From Muricea muricata (Eukaryota > Cnidaria > Anthozoa > Malacalcyonacea > Plexauridae), in NCBI GenBank assembly GCA_963855995.1, contig OY979730.1, positions 3,720,501 to 3,784,500 of the forward strand: a stretch of 64,000 bases of DNA, written 5' to 3'. The translations under genes were made by a program, and so were the position numbers. The notes beneath the pieces are model-generated. The model saw only the letters and a program-made list of their open reading frames with translations, was not told the origin of the DNA and searched no databases. This document shows, in pieces, positions 20,001 to 23,000 of the stretch; within the stretch, counting starts at the first letter, position 1; each line of letters starts with the position of its first letter.

Positions 20001-23000
20001 CTACAGACATGCAATCTGGTATAAAAATTGTGCATGCTACTCAAAAGTATGTTGTGTTGAAACTCTTGCAAGCTTTTTTTCACATTTACAGCTAAGCTGA
20101 GTTTTTGAATAATTTCAACATTAAGAAAATAGGTATTTTTTTGCTTTCAAGTTATTTAAATAAGTTTAATTATTGGGTTTCATAGGCTAAATGTGCACCC
20201 ACTGACTAACATGCTGTATAATAACCTACAAGACTTATCTTAGACTTCTGCATAGGTAAATATAAAATGAAACAAACTTCTCAAGAGTTGAGTTATTTAG
20301 ACAAACAAGACACAAAAACTATTATTTTGCTTTTCTAAATAACTCAAATCTTGAGTTTACAAAATAAACAAATAATATAAATTACAAAGATCAGAGACAC
20401 ACATTTTAAAGACAGATTTATTAAGAAAGGGGCTATTATATTCAACCCTAGACTCTTCCCCTTACAAATGCTTCTAGCTGCAGTCTAAATTCTTCCAAGA
20501 ATTAGTGTAAAAAGTATACCTATGGGAAACTACGTGAAGTATACTAATGTGCAACTCATCATAGTATACTTTGGTCACTTTCAAAAATAATAAATCTCCT
20601 AGGGCCAATTGTTTGAAGCCTGTCAATGGAATGACAGATAAGTAAAAAATATCAACCAGGTCTATGTGGTCATTAAACGACCAATTAAAAAATTTTCTAT
20701 CTGAAAAGAACACTTGTTTATAGAACTACATATTTAATGCTTAATATTTAAGTTGAGTGGTTTGCAAAATGAATAGGAGAGCATGATCTAAATTTGATCT
20801 ATCCACCATTTAAGCTAAACGGCATACAAACAACCGGCTCCTGTACCAATAGTACCTGAAATTAATTTTGCAGCAACCATAAGCAGTGCACCATAGAAAA
20901 CAATAAGAAGAAGGTTGCCAAAAATCTACAAAATATTACCATATTGTTTAAAACTATACAGAAATATTAACATTATGAAATTATACCCAAATACACAAAA
21001 AAACTTTTTTTAAAACTTATTTAAAACTTTTGTCCACTTACTGTACTTGAGCATGGATACATTGTAAGCCTGTCCTCAAAACACTTATCTTGGTAACCCT
21101 CATTAGTTTTGTTTGTGGAATTGGTTACATTGGTTACATTTGTAAAGTTGCCAAAGCCTTCTGCATGCTATATAATTTAAGAAAAACAGTAAATAAGTGT
21201 AGTTTATAAAACATAAGCCATTAACTAGCTATAGGGAGGCAGTACTGCCACATGAAAATGGTGTTTACACTAAAACCTCCATATATTACACCTAGTGTAA
21301 AATCATGCAAGCATTGAAGTAGGTTCTCCACAGTTACTTTGTAAGGTTTTGCAACCTTGATTATAAAATAACATGTATATAACACATGCTCTGGTTGGCG
21401 AAAGCATTGTGTTTGGATCAGGTCATCCAAACACGGAAACCAAAACTGCTTTCGAATTTTTTAAAAACATGGCCGAATGTTGTTATTTTATAAAACAATT
21501 ACTTTATGGTTTCCTTGTTTGGATGGCCTGATAAGAAAAGCATGAAAAATCACTTGCATTCGGCTCATGTTTCGCATGCTTTTCTTAACTCTTGCAACTT
21601 TCTTGCATGTTTGGATCATGCCATTCAAACAGGGAAACCATAAAGTAATTGTATAGTGTTATAGGGAATCCACTAGAAGTTAGTTTGACAAACTTTACAT
21701 GTGGTATTTTGATAGTTCACCCCATTGCAATAACAGTGTGCCTTCAGGTAGTGCCAAGATGGGAATATATTATTATCCTGAGTATGAAAAGCATTGAAAA
21801 TCTATTTACACAACAAATTCAAACATGGGAAGAGTTCAACATAAAAAATATCATTTTGGGGAAGGAAATCCTGACCCTCCTCTCAACTTGGATTTTTTCC
21901 GTGGAGCCAATATGTCATGAAAGTAACTTGATTACCTTAATATGAGTTCTTTGATCCACACACAATACATGAGATTTTATTGAATTGATTTATTTCTCTT
22001 AGTGATACAGATTGTGCAGGTTACATGTACATTATGCATATATGCATATATATATATATATATATATATATATATATATATATATATATATATATATATA
22101 TATATATATATATATATATATATATATATATATATATATATATATAGACAAATGTCCAGTTTTGAATCATATAAATAGAGTGCTCAATACCGTAGTAGAG
22201 CGTGTAGAGAAGAAGAAAAGACAAACTTGAATTACTACCACATGTAAAATACATACCACATGTAAAATTCAAGTTTGTCTTTTCTTCTTCTCTTCTTCTC
22301 TCTCTCTCTCTCTCTCTCTTTATATATATATATATATATATATATATATATATATATATATATATATATATATATATATATATATATATATATATATATA
22401 TATATTTATATATATATATATATATAGATATCAACGGAATAAAAACCATATGATCAGAGTGCTCAATACCGAAGTAGAGCGGAATAGTAAGATAAAGACA
22501 AACTTGGTTTACTTCATATATTTAATCACTACAAATTTGTTTCGTATGGCAGGCAAAGCCTGCCACACTCATCAGGTGATAGTCGCGTCTGATGACGTCA
22601 TGTCGACTCATGTTGCCTGCCACACTCATCAGGTGATAGTCGCGTCTGATGATGTCATGTCGTCATGTCGACTCATCAGGTGATAGTCGCGTCTGATGAC
22701 GTTCCATTGACGTCAAGAACCGCATGTAAATAGTATCAAATTCCCTAGGCACTACCATCAGACGCGACTATCACCTGATGAGTGTGGCAGGCTTTGCCTG
22801 CCATACGAAACAAATTTGTAGTGATTAAATATATGAAGTAAACCAAGTTTGTCTTTATCTTACTATATATATATATATATAAATATAAATATATATATAT
22901 ATATACATATATATATATATATATATATATATATATATATATATATATATATATATATATATATATATATATATATATAGTGACAGAAAGAGTATTTCTC

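Follow-up and report, generated by a model that had tools for sequence, protein, structure and literature searches.

The locus analysed here lies in a 64,000-nt stretch of the genome of Muricea muricata (contig OY979730.1, positions 3,720,501 to 3,784,500; hereafter the window) and is very probably a short insertion, non-autonomous and 5′-truncated, that a Penelope-like element (PLE) has left in a (TA)n tract; both target strands would have primed reverse transcription, starting at two sites, A and B, of the RNA. It consists of two 5′-truncated 3′ ends joined head to head, with the 3′ ends pointing outward and one of them tailed. The locus is an ordinary PLE relic of an already known kind, as hammerheads, inverted pseudo-LTRs and one-sided tails have been published.

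Architecture of the locus

The main element spans positions 22427-22866, reaching beyond the 22525-22825 of a preliminary description (Table 1). Its 111-nt arms (22484-22594 and 22756-22866) are 100% complementary and form a perfect inverted repeat, and the predicted fold of the 383-nt inverted part is a single 111-bp hairpin of -245 kcal/mol. On either side the truncation point lies 3′ of the stop codon, and the copy has, as described previously, no coding capacity. The central stutter belongs to the left half and holds two further partial pseudo-LTR pieces (22615-22651 and 22671-22698), which probably reflect template jumps during cDNA synthesis. The tail contains a hairpin, GCUC-UAC-UUCG-GUA-UU-GAGC, at 22461-22480. 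No target-site duplication is readable inside (TA)n.

A second head-to-head PLE insertion (about 22147-22293) adjoins the main one and ends just short of its hammerhead. Its subfamily resembles that of loci L057-L059 and differs from that of the main element, positions 1186-1257 of L042 match its left arm and, by eye, it is also one-tailed (it was excluded from the tail count given below).

Table 1 Features of the two PLE insertions identified in the window
Feature	Position	Strand	Remarks
(TA)n tract, target of the adjoining small PLE insertion	22046-22146	.	by eye
Second, smaller PLE insertion, left arm (tail and pseudo-LTR end)	22147-22237	-	boundaries by eye
Second, smaller PLE insertion, right arm (tail-less pseudo-LTR end)	22266-22293	+	boundaries by eye
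Main-element tail, bounded by RT start sites A and B	22427-22483	-	
Left pseudo-LTR arm, 111 nt	22484-22594	-	perfect inverse of 22756-22866
Minimal type I hammerhead	22525-22580	-	predicted cut between 22530 and 22529; direct reading and covariance model
Central stutter with filler	22595-22701	-	
Right half: PLE 3′ untranslated region and pseudo-LTR, tail-less end, then (TA)n	22702-22866	+	
Minimal type I hammerhead	22770-22825	+	predicted cut 22820/22821; direct reading and covariance model

Hammerhead motifs and their statistical support

The presence of two hammerhead motifs on opposite strands, proposed in the preliminary description, was confirmed. They are 56 nt each and identical, because both lie inside the 111-nt perfect inverted repeat, and they occupy opposite strands because the PLE insertion is head-to-head. 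Read from the sequence, the plus-strand motif comprises AUCAC (22770-22774), CUGAUGA (22775-22781), an 11-bp stem II (22782-22792 paired with 22796-22806, including one G-U pair) with a UUU loop, GAAA (22807-22810), a stem III (3-4 bp, inside 22810-22819) and A22820 as H17, after which GUGAU (22821-22825) closes the 5-bp stem I. The conserved core and the three helices of a type I hammerhead are found at both motifs. Stem III is as short in the window copy as had been stated, and the cleavage site foreseen earlier, 22820/22821, agrees with the one predicted by direct reading. Each 66-nt hammerhead stretch has a folding z of -4.73 versus shuffles, and its predicted minimum fold contains stem II and lacks the full hammerhead.

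According to the preliminary description, the absence of a covariance-model hit above threshold would refute the ribozymes, and formally the Rfam check gave just this outcome, with no match at gathering score. An Rfam search with the element gave seven matches up to E=1, none of them a hammerhead. We attribute the missing match to the Rfam models themselves, and Rfam was set aside as an arbiter because it fails to detect these ribozymes. The palindrome also drew microRNA and snoRNA matches from Rfam; all lay under their gathering scores and were likewise discarded, being read as a product of the long hairpin.

A covariance model (R1) was constructed from 15 hammerheads of other PLE subfamilies, with the window subfamily excluded. 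When run against the window, it recovered the two hammerhead sites at 84.6 bits (E=6.7e-23, under a rough calibration), and the third match had E=2.6. Furthermore, 40 regions downstream of ORF matches were fetched and submitted to a strict hammerhead scan, which gave a hit in 34 of them. In 32 of these 34 the hit was to the motif belonging to the ORF itself, in normal register. Of the other two, the L065 hit belongs to a second element (L065's own copy has a deletion in stem II), and that in L073 requires a shifted register. The remaining six regions may be interpreted as damaged copies, with changes in the core or stems (L069, L077, L080, L082 and L086) or a deletion (L078). As the scan demanded the core letters at all but one position, constancy of the core is no evidence, but the helices are.

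Covariation was assessed for 20 pairs in 22 distinct sequences (alignment A1, which omits L073, with a changed stem III, and L078, with the ribozyme deleted). In the three helices, 95.8% of cells were standard pairs versus 83.8% in shuffles, and 63 double-change cells were counted, whereas shuffles gave 17.9 and slid partners 4 to 12; the sequences are related to one another, and such kinship can inflate covariation scores. The numbers of pairs with a double change (11 versus 8.6, matched by 45 of 500 shuffles) and of further pair types (23 versus 22.4) were unremarkable. Alignment A3 (15 rows) excludes the window subfamily by dropping the window, L062, L069, L071, L077, L080 and L086 from A1; here 97.3% of cells were paired, there were 48 double-change cells versus 13.2, and 11 double-change pairs versus 7.0, a number reached by 0 of 500 shuffles. 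The window motifs exceed chance, both by the match of the R1 model and by helix covariation.

Genome copies and identity of the element

A search with the arm against its own genome revealed at least 101 matches (40 of 771 candidates scored). In the 34 loci fetched around arm matches (window included), paired arms face outward, and additional arms from other copies are present in L016, L018/L019 and L039. The first 16 pairs are 0.38 to 3.7 kb long and reach varying distances into an ORF; L009 holds two inverted GIY-YIG-like halves and L010 an ORF of 664 aa. The ORF protein itself gave at least 69 matches in the genome (67 of 5261 candidates scored), several of them in minus-then-plus pairs. 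YRDD and FDI[VI]DFYPSI, which we take to be RT-like motifs, and Y.GIT..F..R...H, presumably a GIY-YIG-like motif at the end of the ORF product, are kept in all six aligned, closely related ORF copies. Sequence searches of Pfam and PDB with the ORF product were empty or spurious and confirmed neither RT nor GIY-YIG; judged from motifs and architecture, the ORF probably encodes an RT-like protein with a GIY-YIG-like C-terminus.

Three features of PLEs were found: direct and inverted pseudo-LTRs (both in L045, inverted ones in the head-to-head pairs), a minimal type I hammerhead in the pseudo-LTR and an optional short tail on one pseudo-LTR end. In L045 a pseudo-LTR precedes the ORF, which is followed first by a direct and then by an inverted pseudo-LTR, each with a tail; this is the order published for PLEs.

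One-tail pattern and origin of the head-to-head pairs

The outer ends of the PLE copies lie at two points: A, with (TA)n directly after it, and B, which follows the tail and is 57 nt further in the window copy. Exactly one end is tailed in 19 of the 22 pairs with both ends readable (p about 4e-4 against a fair coin). These 22 comprise (i) 15 pairs, namely 14 of the window subfamily and L010b, with one tail in 14 and none in L021 (in L030 the left arm is a fragment only), (ii) L027, the second element in L018 (1670-2040), L045, L060/61 and L065/66, with one tail each, and (iii) L044 and L057/58, with two tails. Left out were L019 (an inverse duplicate of L018), L023 and L046 (right arm truncated in the ribozyme) and further arms whose partner end lay beyond the fetched sequence. 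The one-tail pattern holds, yet it is not absolute, as L044, L057/58 and L021 deviate. An excess of single-tailed pairs is expected if both target strands prime RT at alternative RNA sites.

The tail hairpin (GCUC-N-UY-GAGC) occurs in 26 distinct forms; two of these adjoin the ORF start instead of being part of a tail, and chance may account for a few. Its inner three pairs are formed in 67 of 78 cells, compared with 54.3 in shuffles, of which 0 of 2000 reached the observed number; the outer stem is no evidence, because the search pattern demanded it.

The same ends bear on the possibility that the palindromes are secondary, produced by inverted duplication once the element was in place or by an error of assembly. 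Two observations point that way: the host flank of L021 is repeated in inverse, and L018 and L019 carry the same region in inverse copy. In most pairs, however, the arms stop at differing ORF positions on the left and right, and the tail sets the two outer ends apart. A simple inverted duplication would not yield this, and such an origin is improbable. The L021 palindrome, for its part, is tail-less on both sides, with host flanks (those of 1099-2068) inversely repeated.

Even less probable is a metazoan retrozyme, i.e. a small tandem circular-RNA element in which the hammerhead makes the circle, although the locus combines a type I hammerhead, small size and no ORF, and such elements exist in the same genome. 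The preliminary description had spoken of a retrozyme or a Penelope-derived insertion. Its second half stands, since longer copies with the same ends bear the RT-like/GIY-YIG-like ORF, into which the same arms run on. Its first half fails: a direct full tandem unit is absent from the locus, where the arms are inverted and the extra pieces only partial, and the ends are those of the ORF-bearing PLE copies. Moreover, the window hammerhead is minimal and missed by RF00163, though RF00163 matches occur elsewhere in the genome.

Least credible of all is a DNA transposon or MITE whose terminal inverted repeats contain hammerheads. It would suit the perfect 111-nt inverted repeats and the many short copies with differing centres, but not the one-sided tail that makes the arms unlike, nor the centres, in which the PLE unit is 5′-truncated to a variable extent.

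Proposed mechanism of insertion

In the favoured scenario of a PLE insertion primed on both strands, the PLE protein would cut (TA)n on both strands, and each freed 3′ end would prime reverse transcription of its own PLE RNA copy. Of the two cDNAs, one would begin ahead of the tail hairpin, at site A, and the other past it, at site B; both would then run inward across the uncut ribozyme, end early with template jumps and join in the middle of the element. One cDNA per target strand, from two RNA copies and with different start sites, appears to be the simplest reading in view of the one-tailed pairs and of the purified anole PLE protein, which, according to the available part of PMC11167929, cuts and extends both strands at AT-rich DNA and starts RT at two internal sites bounding the tail. 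The one-tail pattern and the covarying tail hairpin turn this two-strand, two-start behaviour, seen in vitro for one purified protein, into a countable prediction for other animal genomes.

Ribozyme-cleaved RNA was rejected as the insertion template. The 111-nt arms of the pairs cross the cut site (exceptions are the left fragment of L030 and the small second insertion of the window), and therefore the template RNA was presumably uncut there, in agreement with the result, given in the same part of PMC11167929, that ribozyme mutants remain insertion-competent. The ribozyme would act on tandem PLE transcripts, while in the palindromic window copy the 111-bp hairpin would lock both ribozymes in an inactive duplex. 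Because this copy should fold in such a way, we expect little self-cleavage at the window locus.

Retrozymes of the same genome

It seems fairly likely that PLE machinery also mobilises animal retrozymes in trans. A genome search with RF00163 revealed at least 50 matches over the cut-off (55 listed; 74 of 54,994 candidates scored), and one group of these provided L087, a retrozyme with a 240-nt tandem unit. The search of the genome with this 240-nt retrozyme gave at least 73 matches (40 of 80 candidates scored), and 39 loci with 51 segments (L087, L093 and L104-L140) were mapped. In 35 of the 51 segments the 3′ end falls at unit positions 230-240 or 1-2 (18 segments, site A) or 44-50 (17 segments, site B), the two sites being about 48 nt apart; these intervals, chosen after seeing the data, cover 20 of the 240 unit positions (p = 3e-26), and the end counts are not independent, since some loci are copies of one insertion (L108/L115/L117/L119 appear to form one group and L118/L140 another, all B, and L128/L138/L139 a third, with neither site). 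(TA)n follows 25 of the 35 site A/B ends and 3 of the 16 other ends, versus 58 of 9140 window positions (strict score). Segments longer than 245 nt, i.e. over one unit, make up 25 of the 51, as is expected when circular or tandem RNA is the template.

Head-to-head retrozyme halves with a gap of at most 31 nt were found at nine of the 39 loci (L087, L104, L109, L110, L111, L120, L123, L124 and L125), and in L126 the pieces are in the opposite order, 137 nt apart. Both outer ends lie at A or B in four of the nine (L087, L110, L111 and L120), and all four combine one A with one B end, the chance of which is about 0.06 at the observed frequencies, four pairs being few. The other five have at least one end outside A and B. 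L133, possibly a mixed pair of a PLE tail and a retrozyme, was given no weight because (TA)n is missing from its left flank. L105 combines a retrozyme of over two units with a PLE hammerhead fragment (854-914, E=4.9e-23) that is fused to it in the same orientation. Since TA-rich repeats lie outside and the PLE queries used gave no further match beyond the retrozyme, a template jump fits this one locus better than nesting.

The retrozymes resemble PLE insertions in the (TA)n target, the head-to-head doubles with outward 3′ ends and the two preferred ends, and one of them forms a chimera with a PLE fragment. These findings lend support to a published suggestion that animal retrozymes owe their mobility to PLEs; the literature consulted names PLEs as candidates on the grounds of co-occurrence and shared ribozymes. 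As to the enzyme that moves metazoan retrozymes, the insertion geometry offers a direct, countable signature. The data would also be accounted for by another enzyme with (TA)n specificity and the ability to cut and extend both strands. In addition, retrozyme site B coincides with the retrozyme's own TATATATA run, and annealing of this run to (TA)n could set the site B end without a PLE. An end sequence shared by retrozyme and PLE was not significant (70 of 500 shuffles reached its score, as did 31 of 240 windows). A literature search, with subscription papers mostly outside its reach, found no printed account of inverted retrozyme insertions.

Other canonical hammerheads (RF00163) were observed in L090 (1-1567), an approximately 1.6-kb palindrome with 422-nt arms of 99.5% identity, and in its relatives L091, L094, L141 and L088/L089. 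These family-B hammerheads had no tract of at least 6 AT in the seven of seven fetched stretches, which may miss the element ends, and they play no part in the comparison above. A decayed retrozyme fragment (L142, 358-495) lies downstream of an exon that, by eye, is homeobox-like.

Host region of the window

The locus had been placed in an intron of a Na+/Ca2+ exchanger-like gene. The genome search with PF01699 gave 16 matches (19 of 19 candidates scored), none of them on this contig, and among ten window frames compared with PF01699 one (12122-12346, minus strand) matched at E=0.085, below the cut-off. By eye, two other minus-strand ORFs of the window resemble a Gypsy-type LTR retrotransposon (49012-53673) and a non-LTR reverse transcriptase (38616-40577).

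Comparison with known systems

PLEs of the Penelope/Poseidon clade with hammerheads in their pseudo-LTRs were reportedly described by Cervera and de la Pena in 2014.

Metazoan non-LTR retrozymes, as presented in the available part of PMC7229834, share with the window locus the type I hammerhead, small non-coding repeats and co-occurrence with PLEs, but their units, 150-450 bp long, stand in tandem and their ribozyme is canonical; the locus has neither property. The accessible text of PMC3846280, in which hammerheads are not mentioned by that word, gives as typical an inverted arrangement of pseudo-LTRs of which one may bear a tail. Pen2/Pen2a of Adineta vaga, treated in the same text, have the same head-to-head inverted pseudo-LTRs, with a 31-bp tail on one, and differ by target duplications of 8-10 bp in some copies, whereas none is readable at the window locus.

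The closest resemblance is to PLEs of the Penelope/Poseidon clade, which, in the available parts of PMC11167929, PMC7229834 and PMC7761336, have the same pseudo-LTR with a minimal type I hammerhead, and likewise a tandem or inverted arrangement, AT-rich targets and one ORF. Their optional tail is 30-40 bp long, whereas that of the Muricea PLE is about 57 nt and carries the covarying GCUC..UY-GAGC hairpin, and the Muricea targets are long (TA)n tracts. Finally, the Muricea tail lies upstream of the ORF start, while that of the anole element, according to the available part of PMC11167929, lies inside the ORF.
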